Part shown: in pieces, positions 14,120 through 33,301 of the stretch
How the letters are laid out: each line of letters begins with the position of its first letter
Numbering within the stretch: the stretch's first letter is position 1
From: Saccharopolyspora gloriosae
GTDB taxonomy: Bacteria; Actinomycetota; Actinomycetes; Mycobacteriales; Pseudonocardiaceae
Assembly (NCBI RefSeq): GCF_014203325.1
Contig: NZ_JACHIV010000001.1
Coordinates: forward strand, 931,501 to 995,500
Direction of reading: 5' to 3'
Length of the DNA stretch: 64,000 nucleotides
Made by a program: the position numbers and the translations under genes
Notes under the pieces: model-generated
Told to the model about the DNA's origin: nothing
The model's input: only the letters and a program-made list of their open reading frames with translations
Database searches by the model: none

Positions 14120-16291
14120 TCAGGCGAGGGGGAGCCCGGTAGCCTCCGCTAGGAAGGCGATCTGGTCGGTCGCCAGGCCTACCGTACGCGAAACGGAACG
14201 GGCGGAATGTCCTACCTCGGTCTCCCTGCGCAGCAGCACGGGACGTCGTGCGAGGTCGGAAGCGGTCGCGTGCTGCAGCGCCGCGCACATCTTGCGCGCG
14301 TGGTTCGGATCCACCCGCGTGTCCGACTCGTAGACGGTGAACAGCACCGACGGGTAGGCGGTGCCCTCGGTCACCGCGTGGTACGGCGAGTACGACAGCA
14401 GCCAGTCCAGCTCCGCCGGGTCGTCAGCGGTGCCGTACTCCTCGTTCCAGGTGCGGCCCAGCAGGAACTTCTCGTAGCGCACCATGTCCAGCAGCGGAGC
14501 CGAGCACACCACCGCGCGGTAGAGGTCCGGGCGCTGCGTCAGCGCCGCCCCCACGAGCAGGCCGCCGTTGGAGCCGCCGGTGATCGCCAGCTGCTGCGGT
14601 GAGCTCCACCCGGTGGCGACCAGGTGTTCGGCCGCGGCGTGGAAGTCGTCGAAGACGTTCTGCTTGCTCTCGCGCATGCCCGCGCGGTGCCACTGCTCGC
14701 CTTCCTCGCCGCCGCCGCGCAGCGACGGCAGCGCCCACACTCCGCCCGCGGCGACCCAGGCCAGCGCGGTGGGGGAGTAGGAGGGCTCCATCGACAGCGA
14801 GAACCCGCCGTAGCCGGTGACCATCGCCGGTCGCGGCTGATCGGGTTCCGCGGTGGGCGTGAGCAGGAACATCCGGACGGTGGTGCCGTCCTTCGAGGTG
14901 TACTCGACCTGCGAGGTGTGCACCTCCGGCAGCTCCGCCGCGCCGGGAGCGCGCCGATCCTGCCGGGTCGTGCCGGAGGCCCGCGTGTAGAGCTGCACGC
15001 ACGGCGGGGTGGCGAAGTCGGTCCAGCCGATCCACAGCCGGTCCCGGTCGCCCTCGGTGTCCTCGTCCACCGCGGTCAGCGCCGTGATCTGACCGGTGCC
15101 GGGCAGCGGCACCTCGTCGGTGCGCTCGCCCGTGACGGGGTCGTGCAGCGCCAGGTCGGAGACCGCGTGCCTGGTGCGCAGCACCGCGAGCTTCGGGTCG
15201 TCGGTGCCGTCGTCGAACCAGCGCACCGCCTCCAGCACCGAGTCCGGTTCCTCCGGGATCAGCTCCTGCCAGTGCGCCGGCTCGGGGGTCTCGGGGTCGG
15301 TGACGCACAGCCGCCAGCGCGGCGCGTCCAGCGTGGTCTGCACGTACAGCCTGCCGTCGCGCTCCACCCACGCCGAGGCCCGGATGCCCTCCGAGGTGTC
15401 GATGACCTGGCGGAGCTCGCCGCCCGCGGACAGGTCCGCGATCCACATCGAATCCCGCCGGGCGGTGCCCGGACTGCCGTGGATCAGCAGCCAGCGGCCG
15501 TCGCGCGACACGCGGGCGTCGTAGTAGAAGGTGTGCTCCAGGCCGTCGCCGTGGACCAGCAGGTCGTCGTCGGGGTGGTTGCCGACCTGGTGGCGCCACA
15601 CCCGGCGGTGGAACTGCTCCTCGCCCGCGGGCACCGCTTCCGGGGGCAGCCGCCGCACGTAGAAGAACTCGGCGCCGCCCGGCATCCAGGAGATCGACGA
15701 GTAGCGGCAGCGGTCGATCGGGCCCTCGACCAGCTCACCGGTGGTCACGTCCAGCACGTACAGCAGCGACTCCTCGTCGCCGCCGACCGACACCTGGTAG
15801 GCCAGCCGGTCGCCCTCCAGGCTCGGCGACCAGCGGTCCAGGGTCGTCAGGCCGGACGGGTCCAGCTCGGTGACGTCGAGCAGCGGCCGCTCGGAACCGT
15901 CGTCGTCGCGCAGGTACAGCACCGGGAACTCCTGCCCCGGCGCGCGGCGGGTGAAGAACGCCCGTCCGGCGCGCCACACCGGGGCCGACACCGACCCGGC
16001 CGCCAGCAGGGACGTCAGGCGCTGCGCGATCTCCGCGCGGCCGGGGAGCTCGTCGAGTCGCGCCCGCGCGAACTCGTCCTGCGCGGCCGACCACGACTCG
16101 GTGCGCGGGTCGGCCGGGTCCTCAAGACCTCGGTACGGGTCGGGAACCCGCCTGCCGTGCAGGTCGTCGACCGTGTCGGCGCGTTCGGCGGGCGGATAGG
16201 ACAGGGGCGGCTGAACCTTCGTCACGCCCGCCGACGATACGGGTGCGGACGCCCCCGGCGGCGGTTCGGCACCGGCGTTCACCGAATTCAC
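14120..16291 (-). CDS. Prolyl oligopeptidase family serine peptidase (S9A)
   Basis: A cytosolic endopeptidase of about 723 residues that cleaves short peptides, usually after proline. It has an N-terminal beta-propeller (from about residue 90 to 430) and a C-terminal alpha/beta-hydrolase domain. The catalytic triad is visible: Ser in TGGSNGGLLVG, Asp in YESDTRVDP and His in EVGHSARS. The family's N-terminal motif appears as HGRRVPDPYRGLED. The first GTG is at 16291, while a GTG at 16222 (TKVQPPLSYPP) would give a start closer to family members; neither has a strong ribosome site. It stands alone, divergent from the HNH endonuclease gene. Confidence 0.92.
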   Translation of the reverse strand: MNSVNAGAEPPPGASAPVSSAGVTKVQPPLSYPPAERADTVDDLHGRRVPDPYRGLEDPADPRTESWSAAQDEFARARLDELPGRAEIAQRLTSLLAAGSVSAPVWRAGRAFFTRRAPGQEFPVLYLRDDDGSERPLLDVTELDPSGLTTLDRWSPSLEGDRLAYQVSVGGDEESLLYVLDVTTGELVEGPIDRCRYSSISWMPGGAEFFYVRRLPPEAVPAGEEQFHRRVWRHQVGNHPDDDLLVHGDGLEHTFYYDARVSRDGRWLLIHGSPGTARRDSMWIADLSAGGELRQVIDTSEGIRASAWVERDGRLYVQTTLDAPRWRLCVTDPETPEPAHWQELIPEEPDSVLEAVRWFDDGTDDPKLAVLRTRHAVSDLALHDPVTGERTDEVPLPGTGQITALTAVDEDTEGDRDRLWIGWTDFATPPCVQLYTRASGTTRQDRRAPGAAELPEVHTSQVEYTSKDGTTVRMFLLTPTAEPDQPRPAMVTGYGGFSLSMEPSYSPTALAWVAAGGVWALPSLRGGGEEGEQWHRAGMRESKQNVFDDFHAAAEHLVATGWSSPQQLAITGGSNGGLLVGAALTQRPDLYRAVVCSAPLLDMVRYEKFLLGRTWNEEYGTADDPAELDWLLSYSPYHAVTEGTAYPSVLFTVYESDTRVDPNHARKMCAALQHATASDLARRPVLLRRETEVGHSARSVSRTVGLATDQIAFLAEATGLPLA

Positions 16292-16480
16292 CCTGAACGA
16301 TCAACACCGGAGCCCATACGATCGACACCAGTGGTGCCGGTCGGCTCATCGACCTCTCCCGGACCGTCGCGACCTCGGGTTCGTACCGCGGCGCGGGTGA
16401 CTAGCACGTGGTGAATCACACGTGCGTTCGGGGTGTCGATTGTGGTCGACTGGTTCTTGCCAACCGGTGGAGGTGGTCGC

Positions 16481-17110
16481 GTGCACGACCGAATACCGAC
16501 TCCGACAGGCGCGGCCACGGGGCTCGCGTCTCGGGCAGCGCTGTGCCGGGCACCGGCGCAGCACTGCGCGCAGTCGGGTGATCCGGTACCCCCGTGGCGC
16601 AAGCGGCGGGTGCTGTTGCTCAACACGACCTTCGAACCCCTGACCGCGCTTCCGCTGCGCAGGGCGATCGTGCTGCTGGTCTGCGGTAAGGCCGAGGTCG
16701 TCCACGGCGACTCGGCGGGCATGACGCTGCACTCGGCGACGAGCAGCCACGAAGTGCCGTCGGTGATCCGGCTGAGCAACTTCGTGCGGGTGCCGTACCG
16801 GGGGCGCGTTCCGCTCACCCGCTCCGCGCTGATGCACCGCGACGGGCATCGCTGCGTGTACTGCGGCGTTCGAGCCGAGACGATCGATCACGTGGTGCCC
16901 CGCAGCCGAGGTGGCCCGCACGCGTGGGAGAACTGCGTGGCGTGCTGCACCAAGTGCAACCACCGCAAGGCGGACAAGACGCTCAGCGAACTCGGCTGGC
17001 AGCTGCCGGTGGCTCCGCACGCGCCGCGCGGCAGGCACTGGCGGCTCATCGCGGGCTTGTCCGAGACCGATCCGCTGTGGTTGCCCTACCTGGGCGAGTC
17101 CGCGGCGTGA
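16481..17110 (+). CDS. HNH endonuclease
   Basis: A 209-residue nuclease of the actinobacterial HNH group found next to this locus in mycobacteria (Rv2469c position). The zinc-binding HNH core is complete: CVYC, then DHVVPRSRGG with the catalytic His, then the ENCVACCTKCNHRKAD segment carrying the second CxxC and the final N/H pair. The upstream half (VLLLNTTFEPL, RRAIVLLVCGKAEVV) is the conserved N-terminal extension of this family. GTG 16481 is preferred because GGAGG sits 8 bases upstream; a GTG at 16433 lacks such a site. The biological target is unknown. It converges on the nonapeptide-repeat gene with only 16 bases between the stops. Confidence 0.9.
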   Translation: MHDRIPTPTGAATGLASRAALCRAPAQHCAQSGDPVPPWRKRRVLLLNTTFEPLTALPLRRAIVLLVCGKAEVVHGDSAGMTLHSATSSHEVPSVIRLSNFVRVPYRGRVPLTRSALMHRDGHRCVYCGVRAETIDHVVPRSRGGPHAWENCVACCTKCNHRKADKTLSELGWQLPVAPHAPRGRHWRLIAGLSETDPLWLPYLGESAA

Positions 17111-17126
17111 TCCTGCTGGGAGCACG

Positions 17127-18125
17127 TCAGGCCGCCGCGGCGAGCTGATCGGCACCACGCCCGCTGATCCGCACGCCGCGGTCTTCGCCGCTGATCCGAA
17201 CCCCGCGCTGCTCTCCGCTGATCCGAACCCCGCGCTCTTGTCCGCTGATGCGGACTCCGGCGCGTCCGCTGATCCGCACGCCGCGCTGGTCTCCGCTGAT
17301 GCGAACTCCGCGCCGACCACCGCTGATGCGCACGCCGCGCCGACCACCGCTGATGCGCACGCCGCGCCGACCACCGCTGATGCGCACGCCGCGCCGACCA
17401 CCGCTGATGCGCACGCCGCGCTGGTCTCCGCTGATGCGGACCCCGCGGTCTTCGCCGCTGATGCGCACGCCGCGCTGGTCTCCGCTGATGCGGACCCCGC
17501 GGTCTTCGCCGCTGATGCGCACGCCGCGCTGGTCTCCGCTGATGCGGACCCCGCGGTCTTCGCCGCTGATGCGCACGCCGCGCTGGTCTCCGCTGATGCG
17601 GACCCCGCGGTCTTCGCCGCTGATGCGCACGCCGCGCTGGTCTCCGCTGATGCGAACTCCGCGGTCCTGGCCGCTGATGCGGACGCCGCGATTTTGGCCG
17701 CTGATCCGGACGCCGCGCTGGTCTCCGCTGATGCGGACCCCGCGTTCGGTGCCGCTGATGCGGACACCTCGGTCGTGCCCGCTGATGCGGACCCCGGCTT
17801 GCGAGCTGATCCGGACCCCGCGGTCGGCGCCGCTGATGCGAACACCGCGCTGCTCTCCGCTGATCCGCACGCCCCTGTCCGCGCCGCTGATCCGGACACC
17901 TCGATCAAGGGAGCTGATGCGCACGCCCTGCCTGCCGCTGATCCGGACTCCGCGCTGGTCTCCGCTGATCCGCACACCTCGGTCGGTACCGCTGATCCGC
18001 ACGCCGCGGTGGCCGCCGCTGATCGGCACGCCACTGGCTGTGTGCGCACCGTGTTCAACAAGGGGCTGCGCATCGAAGGAATTGGTGACAACATTACGCT
18101 GAGCGGCGGTTTCGATGATCGACAT
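17127..18125 (-). CDS. Nonapeptide-repeat protein (32 GVRIS units)
   Basis: A 332-residue protein unlike any family I recognise. Residues 1-31 form a non-repetitive leader (MSIIETAAQRNVV, then SFDAQPLVEHGAHTAS). A degenerate unit, GVPISGGH, follows. Then come 32 tandem units of consensus R-G-V-R-I-S-G-x-x; 29 are nine residues and three are eight. The tail is ADQLAAAA. The variable pair xx is mostly DQ, ED, GR or AD. The repeats contain no Cys, Trp, Lys, Phe or Tyr. Codons for the invariant residues differ between units (GGC/GGG/GGA, GTG/GTC/GTT, CGG/CGC) while the amino acids stay fixed, so the minus-strand protein is what is selected. ATG 18125 has GGGAGG 6 bases upstream. Candidate roles (beta-solenoid, multi-core peptide precursor, kinase-site array) are inference. 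Confidence 0.85.
   Translation of the reverse strand: MSIIETAAQRNVVTNSFDAQPLVEHGAHTASGVPISGGHRGVRISGTDRGVRISGDQRGVRISGRQGVRISSLDRGVRISGADRGVRISGEQRGVRISGADRGVRISSQAGVRISGHDRGVRISGTERGVRISGDQRGVRISGQNRGVRISGQDRGVRISGDQRGVRISGEDRGVRISGDQRGVRISGEDRGVRISGDQRGVRISGEDRGVRISGDQRGVRISGEDRGVRISGDQRGVRISGGRRGVRISGGRRGVRISGGRRGVRISGGRRGVRISGDQRGVRISGRAGVRISGQERGVRISGEQRGVRISGEDRGVRISGRGADQLAAAA
17151..18032 (-). repeat. 27-bp tandem repeat array encoding RGVRISGxx
   Basis: About 33 tandem units, mostly 27 bp and three of 24 bp, fill the repeat gene. Two sub-blocks look recently expanded. One is a run of four nearly identical GR units (about 17,320-17,410). The other is a 54-bp alternation of DQ and ED units repeated four times (about 17,415-17,640). 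Every length change is a multiple of three. Confidence 0.95.
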
Positions 18126-18973
18126 GGTGTGCCTCCCGCAGGCCAATAGACGAGTTATGGGGCTAGTGATCAAATATGCAAGACCCATACAGGTGAAAAA
18201 CTAGAAGCGCGGGAGCGTTCAAACAAGCCGCCAAGTTGCCGCCTGCTGCGACCTTCTGGATGGGCTCCATTCGGCGGCGGCGATTACTCTGAAAGAGTTA
18301 GATTACGTGAGGCGCAACACGCTTGACTAGTGACTTTCGGTAGCCTTTGTCCTGCTCAGGCCCAGAATGAACACGGTGAGTCACTGATCCGGCGCGTACT
18401 GCCTACCTGTCGTAGCCAGGTGTCGTGTTCCCGTCGCCGGCGTGCGATTCGGCGGACGCGAGCGGTGTTCCCGGTGTTCGCGAGGTCGCGAACGGGCCGG
18501 ATTTCGGAGTGGAATCGCAGCTCAGCGGGATTTTCTGGCTGCGCGGACGACCTGGGGCGGCCGGTGGGCTCGACTGGAGCTTCCTCGCACGGAACCGACA
18601 TCGTGTCAAGAGTGGCGGCGTTTCACTCGTTCGGCGGTATGGGATTTTCACTAGGAATTGAGGAGTTGTTCGCGCGGAGCTCGACCGGGATCGGCGTGGC
18701 GCGCGAAAGGCGAGCTTTCTCGCGTTCCCGTTTCCGCGACGTCCGCAGCTTCGTGCGTTTTCGCAGGTGATGACGATTCTTCCCGGGGAGTCGCGGTTTC
18801 TCCGTTCGCAATTGCCCGGGATTACGCTGCGTTGTCCACAGGTTCATCCACAGGTGCGGACGCCCTCGCCGCGCGCGGTCGCGAGGACGTTCCGAGCGGC
18901 CCCGCGCACCGGAAGGCGACCGGTAGCCGTGGCGTCGTCCCACGAGGCGGCGTGATCGGCTACCGTGCTGGGC
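18126..18973. other. Long intergenic region upstream of the repeat gene and ctaJ
   Basis: About 850 bases without a convincing gene. The part next to the repeat gene (about 18,130-18,320) is noticeably AT-richer than the rest of the window and should hold that gene's promoter; I cannot place a confident -10/-35. A 146-codon open frame at 18330-18770 has irregular composition and no ribosome site, so I do not call it. A DnaA-box pair lies at 18832-18852, and ctaJ starts at the right edge. Confidence 0.6.
18832..18852 (+). promoter_or_regulatory. Pair of DnaA-box-like sites
   Basis: TTGTCCACA (18832-18840) is a perfect actinobacterial DnaA box. TCATCCACA (18844-18852) differs from TTATCCACA by one base. 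The two are direct repeats 12 bases apart. With only two boxes and no dnaA or dnaN nearby this is not an origin; a regulatory or DnaA-titration role is possible. Confidence 0.5.
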
Positions 18974-19240
18974 GTGACTGTGGTGGAGACCTTCCTCGTG
19001 CTGGCGGTGATCCCAGCGTCCGTGTACCTCCTGGTCACGGCGATCGCCTTCCGGTCGAGCCTGACCCGTACCCGTTATCGCGCAGGCCAGGACTGGGAGT
19101 TCGCGCCCGTGTTCTGGGTCGCGAACCCGGCAGGCGTGAGCACTGCTCCGCCCGGCGACCTGGACTCGTCCGAGACCGCGTCCGACGCCGTCGAGCACAC
19201 GCACAGCACCGACCGGGGAGGCGCACGTGGGAACTGGTGA
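18974..19240 (+). CDS. ctaJ: aa3-type cytochrome oxidase accessory subunit CtaJ
   Basis: A small membrane protein of about 88 residues with one N-terminal transmembrane helix (VETFLVLAVIPASVYLLVTAIAF). A conserved patch, YRAGQDWEFAPVFWVANPAG, and a Gly-rich C-terminus ending GGARGNW match the pattern I recall for CtaJ of the mycobacterial bc1-aa3 respiratory supercomplex. It should sit in the cytoplasmic membrane as a peripheral subunit of complex IV. GTG 18974 and GTG 18965 are both possible starts; neither has a strong ribosome site. It overlaps the DUF5130 gene by 14 bases, a linkage I also recall from mycobacteria. No other oxidase genes are nearby. Confidence 0.75.
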   Translation: MTVVETFLVLAVIPASVYLLVTAIAFRSSLTRTRYRAGQDWEFAPVFWVANPAGVSTAPPGDLDSSETASDAVEHTHSTDRGGARGNW

Positions 19241-19709
19241 GATCACCGGCGCGAGCCGGTCCGGTGAGCAGGAACTGGCGGCGGGCGAGGCCGTGACGGC
19301 GACCGGGCGGCTCTCCATCGCCCGCCGGGTCAAGCCGGAGGCGCGGCACCTGCCGTTCAGCACCGGCCAGCTCGCCCGGCTCGACGAAGCGCTCACGCTC
19401 TCCAGCCGCAGCACCGGCCTGGAGTTCGCGATCTACCTCGGCGACCTCGGTGAGCAGACCCGCGAGTCCGCGGCGGCGCTGCACGCCAACCTGGGCGCGC
19501 GCGCCGAGGAGGGGGTGCTGCTGGCGGTGTCCCCGCAGCAGCGCGCCGTCGAGATCGTCACCGGCGCGGAGTCGAAGCGCCGCGTGCCGGACCGCAGCTG
19601 CCAGCTGGCCTTGATGACCATGGTCGCCTCCTTCAAGGAAGGCGAACTGATCGACGGCCTGATCAGCGCGCTGCGGATGCTCTCCGACGCGGCGGGCACC
19701 CAGCGCTGA
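19227..19709 (+). CDS. DUF5130 (TPM-fold-like) family protein
   Basis: A 160-residue protein of the actinobacterial DUF5130 group, corresponding in position to Rv2468c. The core LARLDEALTLSSRSTGLEFAIYLGDLG, followed by EEGVLLAVSPQQRAVEIVTG, resembles the TPM domain fold, linked elsewhere to photosystem or respiratory complex maintenance. The function here is unknown, but linkage and overlap with ctaJ suggest a tie to cytochrome oxidase. GTG 19227 has GGGAGG 4 bases upstream. No transmembrane helix is visible. It is followed by a double hairpin and is convergent with pepN. Confidence 0.82.
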   Translation: MGTGEITGASRSGEQELAAGEAVTATGRLSIARRVKPEARHLPFSTGQLARLDEALTLSSRSTGLEFAIYLGDLGEQTRESAAALHANLGARAEEGVLLAVSPQQRAVEIVTGAESKRRVPDRSCQLALMTMVASFKEGELIDGLISALRMLSDAAGTQR

Positions 19710-19714
19710 GCACC

Positions 19715-19790
19715 GCGCCGGTCACGACCGGCGCAGCGACCTCCGCACGAAGCGGGAACGGGGCCGGACCGATGCGGTCCGGCCCCGTTC
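19715..19790. terminator. Double hairpin between convergent DUF5130 gene and pepN
   Basis: The first stem is GCGCCGGTC-ac-GACCGGCGC (19715-19734), 9 bp and perfect. The second is GAACGGGGCCGGACC (19756-19770) with GGTCCGGCCCCGTTC (19776-19790), 15 bp and perfect with a 5-base loop. Together they can end transcription from both sides. Confidence 0.85.
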
Positions 19791-19796
19791 GCACGC

Positions 19797-22376
<2,580 letters not shown>

Positions 22377-28635: not shown

Positions 28636-31600
28636 TGAAAACAACCTCTCCATGTGTGTTGCGCGCTTCGATGTTGATATTGGGGAATACGGTTTTAAAG
28701 GTGTTGAGGACATTCTGGCACGAACGGCAAACGTCTTCCGTTGGGGTTCCCGGTTCCGGGCGCCTTCCCGGGAAATCGATCAGCATTCGAAGGTCCCCGG
28801 TGACCGCTTCTCGCAATGTCGACGCCTGATCTCTGAGCTCAGGCGGGAGGGTGCGGGCGAGCACGCGATCGATGATCTCCGGGTGATCGTCCGGGGTCGT
28901 CGCGAGGCGTTTGCCGCTGTGGTCCGGGGCGCGTTCGTTGCTGACCTCGGCCAGCACTTCGCGGATGTGCTTGTCCAAGTCTTTTCGGGTCGAACCGTCA
29001 GGGCGACGGGTCATCTCTTCGAGGACTTGGCGAGTGAGTCTCTCGATCTGCTTTGGTTCGGAGTCGGAGGCCCTGTTGGTTCCGCCGATATCGGTTAGCG
29101 ACCCTTGGTCGTCGACATTGAGGGTGGGGAATATTTGTTCGCTGAAGTTGACCCGCTGTGTCCCGTTCTGCCGTTGCCCCATGTAGGTCTTGGTCAGATC
29201 CTTGCCCCCGCTGGACGAGTCCTGCTCGGAGTGCACAGCGCGCCCGTCGATGTCCAGGCGTGCCGTGCTGGAGGTCAACGTTCGACTCTTTCCACGGACA
29301 GGTTCGGCTTGAACGGGCTTATTCGGATCGTTGTCGAGGCGCTGGTTCGGATCGCCTTCGATCTGCTTTGCTCGATTTTCTTCCACGCGGCCATTGAGCC
29401 GCTGGAAGTCGGCTTCGCGTTGTGCATCGACGTCGAGATCATCCCCCCGTGCTTCCGCGTCGTCCGGGGCGGGGCCGGGGTCTTCGCCGTCGCGGGGCGG
29501 GTGGAAGCCGTCGTTGCCAGCCGGGGTGTCGGTGCCGTCGGGGTGGTGGGTGTCCCAGCTGCCGTTCGGGGGCCAGCCGGGGCGGCCGTCGGGGCCCATG
29601 TCGGAGGCGAAGACGCGGCCGGTGCCGTCGGTCCAGGCGAGGCCGCGGGGCGCGGTGACGGGGACGCCGAGTTCGCGGGAGAGGTCGCGGGCGAGGCCGC
29701 TGGTGCCCGCGTCGCAGGACAGCAGGCGGACGGGTCCGCCGTCGTAGGCGGGGTCGCGGCGCAGCATGTCCGCGAACTCCTTGGCGCTGAAGGTGTGGTC
29801 GCCGACCCGGACGCGGCCGTCGGGCAAGGCGTGCACGTCGACGGTGTGGTGCACACCGTCGTCGGGGACGCGTTGCGCTAGGTCCCGCATGTTCTGGTCG
29901 TGGTGGTACGACGAGCCGCTGGGAGTCCGGTCGCGGGTCGCTTCGGCCTGGTCGAGCTGGTGCTGGCGTTCCGGCGTGCCGGGCTCGGCGTCCGGGTGCT
30001 GCCGGTCGCCGTCGTGCGTGCGCTGGTCCGCGTCGTGCGGCCGTTGCTCCGGGCGGTCGTTCGGGCGGTCGGCCTGCCGGTCGGGCCGCGCGTCGGAGGA
30101 GTGGCGGCCGTCGGGACGCGCCGATCCGTCCGCTCGTGATCCGTCGGTGGCCGATTCCGGTCCGTCTCGGCGAGGTGCTGAGGAGTCCGGTCGCGCGTCC
30201 GGGCGAGCCGAGTCCTGGGTGCGCGGGGGAGCGGGGTCGGCTCCTTGCGGGTGCGTGCCGGCTCGGGCGTCGCGCGGCGACGGGCCCTCCGGAGTGCGAG
30301 AGGGCGAGGCTGCGCCGGGCGCTTCCGGGGCGCGGTTGCTCTGAGGGTGTCCGCTGGGAGCCGGGCTCGCGTGTTGCCGGCCCGCTCCGGTGCCGTCAGG
30401 GCGCCCGGGTTGCCCGCTCGGGTCAGGGCGCTGCCCAGGAACCTCCGGGCGTGCCGCAGGACCGTTGGCGCTCCCGATGCCGTCCGGACGGCCGGAGGTT
30501 CCGGCGTGCGACGGGCCGTCGGGTCGAGCGGAAGTACCTGGGTGCGACGGGCCATCGGGTCGACCAGGGTTTCCGGCGTGAGATGGGGCGTCGGGTCGGG
30601 AGGGCGCGGCGTGCTGTGGGCTCGGGCCGTCGGACCGTGACGGGGACTGGCGAGGGGATTCGGCGTGGCGACCGCCGGGGGAAGGTGGCGGGGTCGAGGT
30701 GCGCCCGCTGTCGGGACGGGCGGGGGCGTCCGCGCCTCGGGCGGACGGGGCGAGCGGCCGGTCCGAGCGCGAGCCGCCGGGGCGGGAGCCGTCGGCCGGG
30801 TGGTGAGCGGCACCCGGAGTGCCGGAGGTGCCGGTCCAGCTCCCGGCGGAGCCCGGCCGGTTACCGCCGGAGCCGGGCGTTCCGGCTGCGCCCGGTGCGC
30901 CACCGGCGGGTGCGCCGCCCATCGCGCCACCGCCCGCGCTCGTGCCCTGGTCGGCGCGGCCCGCGCCTCCCGGGGCCGCGGGAGGGGGTGCCGCCGCGGG
31001 CTCCGCGGGACGCGCCGGAGCGTCCACATTGGACGCGGACGTGGTGCCGGCGGGTCCGGAAGGCTGCGTGCGCGTGGAATCGCCGCCGTGCGGCATCGAG
31101 CCCGAGCCGCCCGCGGATCCGCCGGAAGCCGAACCCGAGTCGCCCGGAGTCGTTGCGGACGCGTTCCCGGATCCGCCGGACGCCGAGCTCGACTCGCCCG
31201 GAGTCGTGCCGGAGTTCGAGGATCCGCTGGAGGCATCCGAACCACCGGAGCCGGACTCGGACGACGTGTCGGTGCCCCGGGACCCCGTGCCGCCACTGCC
31301 GGTGTCCGGCGTGCCGCTCGAATCGCCTGCGCCCGAGGTGGCTGTCGTGCTGCTGTCGCCGTACCCGGAGCCATAGCCGGAGCCGTACCCCGAGCCGCCG
31401 GTGGAGGCGGTGTCGGCTCGGCCCGCGCCGGGACCGCCGTCGGCGGATGTAGTCGACGGGCCGCTGGAACCGCCGTCGGCGGACCTGGTCGACGGGCTGC
31501 CGGAACCGCCGTCGGCGGACGTGGTCGACGGGCCGCTGGAGTCGCCGTCGGTGGACGACCTGGGTGTCGCTCCGGAATCGCCCGTGGGTGTGGGATCAGA

Positions 31601-33301
31601 CGTCCGCGTGGCAGCGCCGTCGGAGGCGGACGGGGAGTCCGCCGCGTCGGAGCGAGTGCTCGGGCCCTCCGCGCCGGGGGAGGGCGACGCCGCGTCCGAG
31701 CCGGACCGCGCACCACCGGAGTCGGTGTCACCGGACGTGCGTGACCCGGAATCCTCGCCGGACGACCGCGAACCGCCCTCGGAGACCGAGCCGCCGTCGG
31801 CGGTCGAGCCGCCGTCGCTCGACGAACGGCTCCCGTCCCCGGCCGACGACGACCCGGTGTCGGAAGAGCTCGTGGCCCCTTCGGTGGACGAGGTGCTTCC
31901 GCCGCTGCTCGAATCCGCGCTCGCCGTGGACGAATCACCGGACAGCATGTCCTCAATGGACGAACGAGGCGAGGAAGAACCGCTGTCCGACGAGGAATTC
32001 GAGCCGCCGGAGTCGCCGGACGATCCGCCCTCCGCGGTGGCGGACGCCGTGCTGCCCGTGGACGTCGAGCTCGCCGCGTCACCACTGCCACCGGTCGAGC
32101 CGCTGTCGCCGGACCTGGCGGAACCGCTGTCACCGCCAGCGGAGGAGCCGCTGCTCCCCGAGGAATCGCCCGATCCGCTCACGTCGGGCACGTCCGGGGC
32201 GCTGAAGTGGTTCGACAGGGCCGCGCCGCCCGCTCCCATGCCCGCGCCCATGGCGCCACCGGACATCGCGCCGGTGCCGACGGCGCCCCAGTCGACCTTG
32301 CCTTCGGTGATGAGCTGCTCGGCGACGCTGCCGATGGCGCCTTGCGCGGCACCGCTGGCGCCTTCCTTGAGGGCCGTTGCGCCGAGGTTCTTGGCGGCGC
32401 TCTCGCCCGCCGCTCCGGCGGCGTCCCCGGCGGCACGGCCCGCGGCTCCGGCGGCGTCGCCAGCCGCGTCACCCGCGGCTCGCCCGGCCGCACCGGCCGC
32501 GCTGCCCGCCGCGTCACCCGCGGCTCCCGCCGCGTCCCCGGCGGCCCGGCCCGCGGAGCTCGCCGCGTTGCCCGCGGCATCGCCCACGGCGTCGCCCGCC
32601 GCGTCGCCGACGGCCCCCGCCGCCTTGCGCGCCGCCACGTTCCCGACGCCCTCGAAGACACCGCCGACGGCGCCGCCGATGGCCCCGCTGATCGCCGCGT
32701 CCTTGAACTTGCCGCCGTCGAGGCCCTTGCGCTCGCCGGAGGCGATCTGGATGCCCTGCACCGCGGCCTCGATCGCCATGGACGTGGCGACCTCGATGGC
32801 CACGTTCTTGGCGATGCTCAGCACGAGCTGCTTGAAGATCTGCATCACCACGGTGCGGGTGATGCCTTGCGCGATGGGAATCCCCGCCGTGGAAGCGCCG
32901 AAGCTGAACGCCGCGCTGGCGATCATCGCCGCGATCTGGATCGCGAGCGCGATCAGCGAGGCGATGATGGTCAGCTTGGTGTGCTCGACGTCCAGCGCCG
33001 CGTCGTCGCAGCCCTGGCCGAGCTGCTCGCACGCCTCCTGGAGCTTCGGCAGCGCGGCCTCACCGCCGTTGCCGATGTCCTGCCAGAGCTTCTCGAACGC
33101 GTCGTGCGTCTGGCCTTCCATGCCGCTCAGCGACTGGCTCGCGCCGCCGTTCGCGTCGCCGGTGACGCCGTCGATGCCGTCGCCCGCCGCCCGCCACGCG
33201 TCGGCGAGGCGGCGCAGCGCGTCCTCGTCACCTTCCGGCCAGGACTGTCCGACGACGATCGGCAGCAGCCATTTGACCTCGTCGGGCATCTCGATGCTCA
33301 T
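28628..33301 (-). CDS. Polymorphic toxin, WXG100-like N-terminus and deaminase-like C-terminus
   Basis: A 1557-residue protein. Residues 1-110 are a WXG100-like helical domain (WLLPIVVGQSWPEGDEDALR) of the sort that guides type VII (ESX) export. Residues about 110-185 are hydrophobic. AGDAAG repeats follow at about 200-310, then a very long Ser/Gly/Asp/Pro-rich linker to about 1150. A pretoxin-like domain contains VHALPDGRVRVGDHTF and PVRLLSCDAGTSGLARDLSR. The C-terminal domain has a Ser-Glu pair at about 1387 (NFSEQIF) and C-R-S-C at 1525-1528, the zinc-ligand layout of YwqJ-type nucleic-acid deaminases. It is preceded by small WXG-like and YbaB-like genes and followed by immunity candidates. 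The deaminase call is inference from motifs. Confidence 0.85.
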   Translation of the reverse strand: MSIEMPDEVKWLLPIVVGQSWPEGDEDALRRLADAWRAAGDGIDGVTGDANGGASQSLSGMEGQTHDAFEKLWQDIGNGGEAALPKLQEACEQLGQGCDDAALDVEHTKLTIIASLIALAIQIAAMIASAAFSFGASTAGIPIAQGITRTVVMQIFKQLVLSIAKNVAIEVATSMAIEAAVQGIQIASGERKGLDGGKFKDAAISGAIGGAVGGVFEGVGNVAARKAAGAVGDAAGDAVGDAAGNAASSAGRAAGDAAGAAGDAAGSAAGAAGRAAGDAAGDAAGAAGRAAGDAAGAAGESAAKNLGATALKEGASGAAQGAIGSVAEQLITEGKVDWGAVGTGAMSGGAMGAGMGAGGAALSNHFSAPDVPDVSGSGDSSGSSGSSAGGDSGSARSGDSGSTGGSGDAASSTSTGSTASATAEGGSSGDSGGSNSSSDSGSSSPRSSIEDMLSGDSSTASADSSSGGSTSSTEGATSSSDTGSSSAGDGSRSSSDGGSTADGGSVSEGGSRSSGEDSGSRTSGDTDSGGARSGSDAASPSPGAEGPSTRSDAADSPSASDGAATRTSDPTPTGDSGATPRSSTDGDSSGPSTTSADGGSGSPSTRSADGGSSGPSTTSADGGPGAGRADTASTGGSGYGSGYGSGYGDSSTTATSGAGDSSGTPDTGSGGTGSRGTDTSSESGSGGSDASSGSSNSGTTPGESSSASGGSGNASATTPGDSGSASGGSAGGSGSMPHGGDSTRTQPSGPAGTTSASNVDAPARPAEPAAAPPPAAPGGAGRADQGTSAGGGAMGGAPAGGAPGAAGTPGSGGNRPGSAGSWTGTSGTPGAAHHPADGSRPGGSRSDRPLAPSARGADAPARPDSGRTSTPPPSPGGRHAESPRQSPSRSDGPSPQHAAPSRPDAPSHAGNPGRPDGPSHPGTSARPDGPSHAGTSGRPDGIGSANGPAARPEVPGQRPDPSGQPGRPDGTGAGRQHASPAPSGHPQSNRAPEAPGAASPSRTPEGPSPRDARAGTHPQGADPAPPRTQDSARPDARPDSSAPRRDGPESATDGSRADGSARPDGRHSSDARPDRQADRPNDRPEQRPHDADQRTHDGDRQHPDAEPGTPERQHQLDQAEATRDRTPSGSSYHHDQNMRDLAQRVPDDGVHHTVDVHALPDGRVRVGDHTFSAKEFADMLRRDPAYDGGPVRLLSCDAGTSGLARDLSRELGVPVTAPRGLAWTDGTGRVFASDMGPDGRPGWPPNGSWDTHHPDGTDTPAGNDGFHPPRDGEDPGPAPDDAEARGDDLDVDAQREADFQRLNGRVEENRAKQIEGDPNQRLDNDPNKPVQAEPVRGKSRTLTSSTARLDIDGRAVHSEQDSSSGGKDLTKTYMGQRQNGTQRVNFSEQIFPTLNVDDQGSLTDIGGTNRASDSEPKQIERLTRQVLEEMTRRPDGSTRKDLDKHIREVLAEVSNERAPDHSGKRLATTPDDHPEIIDRVLARTLPPELRDQASTLREAVTGDLRMLIDFPGRRPEPGTPTEDVCRSCQNVLNTFKTVFPNINIEARNTHGEVVFSA

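Follow-up and report, generated by a model that had tools for sequence, protein, structure and literature searches.

The 64,000-nucleotide stretch of the Saccharopolyspora gloriosae genome analysed here (the window; contig NZ_JACHIV010000001.1, positions 931,501 to 995,500) carries a gene for a predicted protein built mostly from 32 copies of the pentapeptide GVRIS. By sequence comparison, this protein is not an orphan: it is a member of a family that is locked to one chromosomal position and in which each lineage uses its own five-residue word. Literature searches on the words and the array returned no description of the protein or its role, and the bare-pentapeptide matches listed look unrelated by title. 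The family is thus apparently undescribed in the families and literature searched. What is new is the family and its evolutionary pattern, not a proven mechanism. The arrays represent a natural experiment in recognition, with many copies, eight words, nearly free spacers and genera that lack the gene, and they pose the question of what keeps repeated short motifs identical and how a whole array switches its word.

A first-pass annotation, made from the letters alone, had divided the protein into a 31-residue leader, a degenerate unit followed by 32 GVRIS units, and a tail rich in Ala, and translation bears out each of these parts (Table 1). The protein has no Cys, Trp, Tyr or Lys, and its single Phe sits in the leader, in agreement with the statement that the repeats lack Cys and aromatic residues. 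The units were also said to be uniform nonapeptides that vary only at their last two positions. The first part holds for most units, but three of the 31 spacers between GVRIS copies have three residues instead of the usual four (28/31), leaving some units shorter. The second part does not hold, as the residue following GVRIS is Ser in two of the 32 units and the preceding residue is Arg in just 29.

At the DNA level, the 32 copies occur in 14 versions that encode a single amino-acid sequence. Synonymous variation at the fixed residues, another early claim, was found at Gly, Val and Arg but not at Ile or Ser, which are ATC and AGC, respectively, in 32/32 copies. Tandem Repeats Finder (TRF) reports periods of 27 and 54 bp for the array, which it delimits at 17161-18032, and some 18-residue blocks resemble recent duplications. 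Because 14 DNA versions encode one peptide and the same design recurs at 60 further loci, the repeat is not a product of chance. The plus strand is also open across the array (412 and 284 aa), and the minus strand is taken as the coding side since a promoter-like element, a ribosome-binding site and the genes of relatives all point to it. A search with the protein found one match in its own 6.83-Mb genome; a weaker own-genome match in an order-level search is a different repeat (L227).

When 297 genomes of the same taxonomic family were searched with the protein, 108 gave matches, a count that includes weak and probably unreal ones in genera without an array in the one genome read (g3, g5 and g43). 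Sixty-one loci were compared, comprising 40 from protein matches, 20 from matches to the upstream element described below and the window itself; this is a chosen set. Across it, the words by lineage are GVRIS, SVRIT, GTRVT, GVRVT, GTRIT, GIRVN, GVRIE and GVRIH, with GVRIN as a ninth if a mini-peptide (L143) is counted. GVRIS is found in Saccharopolyspora and in other genera. The Arg at position 3 is the sole residue common to all eight words, and position 5 is Asn (GIRVN, GVRIN), Glu (GVRIE) or His (GVRIH) across whole arrays. Genes carry 2 to 48 exact units. Spacer length varies between 1 and 27 residues, so the nonapeptide is not a constant of the family. Spacers of one, three and four residues account for 860 of the 992, while those of two residues number only 19. 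The first ~16 leader residues align with few gaps over the 61 members, with T6, Q9 and T14 each present in 32. The highest 15-residue mean hydropathy among the 61 proteins is 1.43, and none has a long hydrophobic segment.

Beyond the taxonomic family, an order-level search matched 17 genomes at E <=0.001. Nine places in eight of these were read; none has the upstream element, and eight are other repeats or low complexity. The ninth (L220, in genome G537) is a 456-aa frame at an unrelated place in which GVRVS occurs seven times, either a look-alike or a distant case. In mobile-element databases, the window protein matched one phage record at 30% identity and six plasmid records at 17-31%, a GTRVT member had no phage match, and none of 17 pattern matches in IMG/VR was confirmed.

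The annotation knew of no family with this consensus, and this stands in part. No Pfam family is common to all 11 members scanned, three of the ten members other than the window protein match none, and NCBIfam, PHROGs and PDB sequence searches gave no match for the array protein. However, DUF2345, a VgrG-type domain, matches five of those ten at E <=0.01, two of them above the cut-off of 30.7 bits (L034 at 75.3 and L047 at 60.0); the window protein reaches E 0.0022, under the cut-off. The window protein itself passes for DUF3060 (34.3 bits against a cut-off of 23.1) and for DNA_pol3_beta, DUF3060 recurs in one of the ten (L047, 24.2 bits), and other unrelated families pass in single members. 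The DUF3060 label is tentatively read as a repeat artefact, and Pfam labels were rejected as the identity of the family because the members disagree.

Selection appears to operate on the motif. Over the 61 genes, 1053 exact units were counted against 29 one-off words, and arrays are rarely mixed. The ratio of nonsynonymous to synonymous differences (pN/pS) is 0.092 in the motif versus 0.653 in spacers of three or four residues, the motif figure being lowered because units were accepted at <=2 mismatches to the word, i.e. chosen by resemblance. Over the set, every codon of Gly, Val and Thr appears, as do all six of Arg and both codon families of Ser, with Ile nearly always ATC, and adjacent units differ at 0.41-0.60 of synonymous sites depending on the word. 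The earlier claim of selection on the minus-strand protein is thus borne out in these sequences, at the level of the motif. Some units do decay, since 33 of the 95 spacers of at least six residues contain motif remnants (21 with four-of-five and 12 with three-of-five matches), above shuffles (0.26 and 4.1). The off-type share is 41 in 632 in the 20 arrays of at least 20 units versus 54 in 516 in the 41 smaller ones, with no trend with size by rank. The sequence data require that even long arrays keep their units to a single word, that almost nothing constrains the spacers and that a word change in a lineage affects all units together.

The word follows the tree of pepN, the nearby aminopeptidase N gene, on which few word changes are needed. 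With 67 rows and eight labels including 'none', and with the GVRIH and GVRIN loci left out, the labels require 10 changes, losses included, where the least possible is 7 and the shuffled mean is 32.9. Counting each label against the rest gives three changes for GVRIS, four for GTRVT, three for none, one each for SVRIT and GVRVT, and two for GTRIT. These numbers are approximate because the tree is a quick one with several weak deep forks. Copy number, by comparison, changes fast.

Array genes also share a promoter-like element. Alignment of 43 upstream regions gave the consensus TTGGCGGCTTGT-N17/18-TAGnTTTTCACCTGTAYGGGTCTTGC or a variant of it. TTCACC lies 67-73 nt ahead of the ATG in 58 of the 61 loci, and the count for the remaining three is 61 nt. 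In L034-L036, the ATG is taken to be 9 nt upstream of the counted one. The distance from element to ATG is likewise nearly constant (70-73 nt in 53/61). In a search of the class, the strict pattern occurred in two of 394 genomes; both belong to the same taxonomic family, and the 391 genomes from elsewhere in the class gave no match. A looser pattern that tolerates one mismatch gave matches in 218 of the 297 genomes of the family, spread over 38 of 46 genera. This is an upper figure, as a mismatch was permitted and single matches such as that in G049 look like chance; the reversed-pattern control gave 0 to 4 matches per genome. All 20 element sites chosen for breadth of genera precede an array; they include six genera missed by the protein search and added the words GIRVN and GVRVT. 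Conservation of the bases just past the -10-like box exceeds what a promoter requires, as if they were bound by a regulator. The consensus RNA fold of 28 equal-length leaders has an energy of -0.34 kcal/mol, compared with a mean of -0.06 (SD 0.35) for column shuffles, and three Rfam matches at 16000-20000 all lie under their gathering scores. As a side observation, the element at 18178-18234 is of a promoter-plus-start type that occurs about once per genome and marks the array gene across a bacterial family.

The locus of the array is fixed as well (Table 1). Five neighbours were tested at 60 loci: the HNH endonuclease-like gene is missed at one and pepN at two (present at 58/60), in each case where the fetched stretch or contig ends, while the S9 peptidase gene is missed at 16 (present at 44/60). 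All GTRVT loci, 15 in number, are among these 16, the other being a GTRIT locus; the contig of L042 stops short of S9. The DUF5130 protein matches MSMEG_4692 of the Mycobacterium smegmatis CIII2CIV2 respiratory supercomplex (6adq chain J, E 2e-29). MSMEG_4693 is named CtaJ in PMC8523172. By its position, the 91-aa open reading frame (ORF) beside DUF5130 is perhaps a CtaJ/MSMEG_4693-like subunit; it has no PDB sequence match. The array gene thus has a homologue of a respiratory-supercomplex subunit gene close by, and no role for the array gene is described in the literature searched.

Table 1. Features of the array gene and its surroundings in the window; the -35 and -10 labels are by resemblance only.
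Feature	Position	Strand	Remarks
Array gene	17127..18125	-	332-aa ORF, ATG start
Leader, 31 aa	18033..18125	-	residues 1-31
Degenerate unit GVPISGGHR	18006..18032	-	residues 32-40
32 exact GVRIS units	17163..18005	-	residues 41-321
Ala-rich C-terminal tail	17130..17162	-	last residues LAAAA; from translation
Ribosome-binding site GGGAGG	18132..18137	-	read from sequence
Conserved element CACCTGTATGGGTCTTGC	18178..18195	-	near likely transcription start; core with sole exact copy in own genome
-10-like box TAGTTT	18198..18203	-	assigned by resemblance
Conserved block TTGGCGGCTTGTTT containing -35-like TTGTTT	18221..18234	-	17 bp ahead of -10-like box; by resemblance
HNH endonuclease-like gene	16433..17110	+	convergent with array at 59/60 loci; remaining one cut by contig end
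S9 prolyl oligopeptidase-like gene	14120-16291		beyond HNH
91-aa small ORF	18965..19240	+	divergent, promoter side, 60/60 loci; >1 kb off in 7
DUF5130 gene	19227..19709	+	divergent, promoter side, 60/60 loci; homologue of MSMEG_4692

From each of ten genera, one genome without an element match was examined. Three still carry arrays with a diverged element: two use the word GTRVT (L137, L140), while in the third (L143) the array reaches its smallest form, with GVRIN four times in a peptide of 31 aa, encoded on the plus strand between HNH and the homologue of the 91-aa ORF. The other seven have no array, and in five of them HNH lies within ~130 bp of the 91-aa ORF, measured between alignment ends. 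Outside the family, a scan requiring at least four identical pentapeptides found no such array at 11 DUF5130 loci and 29 HNH loci, the best-scoring from 127 and 123 outside genomes, respectively, that match these genes, the repeats reported there being Arg-rich frames with four copies or masked letters. In six of ten outside genomes in which both were located, HNH and DUF5130 lie within 430 bp on one strand without an array. The neighbourhood is therefore not array-specific, and the array seems to have been added, at the level of the family, to a gene order that is older.

Taken together, we give slightly less than even credence to a lineage-coded assembly code. Each lineage would have one private five-residue word in up to 48 copies, kept nearly pure by selection on single units, which would match itself or a partner and be replaced as a whole array. 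No comparable code system was found in the families and papers searched. Regarding its molecular form, we tentatively favour, at clearly less than even odds, a cytosolic, non-enzymatic sticker-and-spacer protein that would self-assemble through homotypic beta-strand stickers. Each pentapeptide (in most words a small, a beta-branched, an Arg, a beta-branched and a polar residue) would form a short extended strand, and identical strands would pair within and between chains to give a filament, a solenoid-like stack or a dense phase, with the hydrophilic spacers as turns or linkers. The leader may anchor or start assembly, and the AA or LAA end found in some lineages could shorten the life of the protein through Clp proteases. 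A lineage would swap its word array-wide, probably via shrinkage to a few units followed by re-expansion. Because the strands would pair with each other, copies in one cell would have to match, and self-pairing is the most direct explanation of word uniformity: a unit of another word would upset those next to it. If the units do match themselves, the arrays would constitute a new bacterial assembly code. Among the closest known systems are functional amyloid repeat proteins such as CsgA and FapC, in which near-identical strand-length repeats are split by turns. In contrast to these, the arrays have shorter, Arg-centred units and lack a long hydrophobic segment or a neighbouring secretion gene.

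Several findings weigh against self-assembly. Some members have only 2-5 units, or four in the 31-aa peptide, and could not fold on their own at that size. Arrays tolerate decayed units, as seen in the remnant-bearing long spacers, and the motif constraint was estimated from units selected by their resemblance to the word. Net charge ranges from -13 to +66 across the family. In addition, the AlphaFold2 (AF2) model of the window protein is a beta-helix with a mean pLDDT (predicted local distance difference test) of 65, that of a GTRVT member has a mean of 56, and Foldseek returned nothing at E <=0.001 for either model.

The main rival is a docking array: a co-evolving partner explains the array data nearly as well as self-pairing does, and we regard it as only slightly less probable. 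Here, the pentapeptide would be a short linear motif, bound in extended form with its Arg in a pocket of one cellular partner; the array would gather or titrate copies of that partner, partner and word would co-evolve, and an AA or LAA tail may pass the complex to Clp. This accommodates the free spacer length and charge, the spread from 2 to 48 exact units, the Arg shared by all eight words, the few word changes that affect whole arrays, the leader similarity and the fixed locus. The protein ends also fit. Eleven of the 61 arrays, from seven genera, end in LAA versus none of 363 background ORFs (long ORFs filtered by GC pattern), and 23 end in AA versus 19 of the background, although array members are related and these counts are not independent. 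The transfer-messenger RNA (tmRNA) tags of 12/12 family genomes end in [FY][AS]LAA, so that the LAA ends resemble the ssrA degron; unlike that tag, the array tail is encoded within the gene itself and is not universal. Indeed, 24 of the 61 arrays stop within two residues of a last word, five of these also ending in AA. Against docking, redundant sites should decay in large arrays, and by a crude measure larger arrays show no higher off-type share; two-residue spacers are rare; and no partner was found, with no genome-wide search for one made. If the units dock, the groove of the partner should co-vary with the word.

A monomeric beta-helix or solenoid with a fixed fold, acting as a ruler, spacer or binding surface, is improbable. 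The annotation had listed a solenoid or filament among its options, and the AF2 model of modest confidence and its beta-helix matches are in line with this, as are weak, scattered Pfam matches that include Hexapep, Beta_helix and NosD, none above its own cut-off (Hexapep in one of the 11 members, L041, at 26.6 versus 27 bits). Solenoid cores commonly exchange Val, Ile and Leu, whereas these words rarely do. Many GTRVT units are six residues long with Val every six, as in the left-handed beta-helix of Hexapep proteins, but other lineages have units of eight or nine residues and long linkers, and spacers of three and four residues dominate GVRIS and SVRIT. This mixture of six-, eight- and nine-residue units with long linkers, together with the very small members, is difficult to reconcile with one fixed fold. 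RTX proteins, with the consensus GGxGxDxUx, share the nine-residue tandem units of the window member and Gly at turns. The arrays, however, have units of 6-9 residues, no export segment was seen, and no fixed Asp pattern occurs in the residues around the motif or in the spacer table, as the annotation had anticipated in setting RTX aside. A beta-helix for perfect repeats is moreover a reported AF2 artefact (PMC11795689).

Release of a signalling or modified pentapeptide from a multi-copy precursor by cytosolic proteolysis appears improbable as well. Multi-copy peptide pheromone and multi-core RiPP (ribosomally synthesised and post-translationally modified peptide) precursors consist of a leader and identical cores; yeast alpha-factor precursors offer one analogy, and Phr pentapeptides another by length and content. 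The arrays resemble them in their leader, identical cores, variable spacers, changing copy number and lineage word, and the degron-like ends of some lineages and the nearby pepN could be accommodated. However, no cleavage residue is conserved beside the motif, and the earlier suggestion of cutting at Arg finds little support, since Arg precedes 217 of 499 GVRIS units and only 1 of 142 SVRIT units. Spacers also shrink to one residue, there is no long hydrophobic segment, and HNH and DUF5130 lie close together without an array in six of the ten outside genomes. Consistent with the annotation, no modifying enzyme, transporter, processing or secretion gene was found among the recurrent neighbours (HNH, DUF5130, the small ORF, pepN and S9), a negative that covers linked genes.

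The two weakest explanations were rejected. A Ser/Thr phosphorylation-site array, also raised in the annotation, is very improbable: Arg-x-Ser/Thr is present in the GVRIS (the window's own), SVRIT, GTRVT, GVRVT and GTRIT lineages, but the idea is disfavoured because position 5 is Asn, Glu or His throughout the arrays of others. A selfish or neutral DNA repeat that happens to be open has a negligible probability, given that its fast copy-number change, TRF signal and single codons for motif Ile and Ser in the window gene are set against motif constraint, one word across many species with synonymous codons free, and a conserved promoter-like element, ribosome-binding site and leader, whereas simple DNA repeats elsewhere are exact copies open in several frames. 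Apart from the array, TRF reported further tandem repeats in the window at 31424-31582 and 32406-32623.
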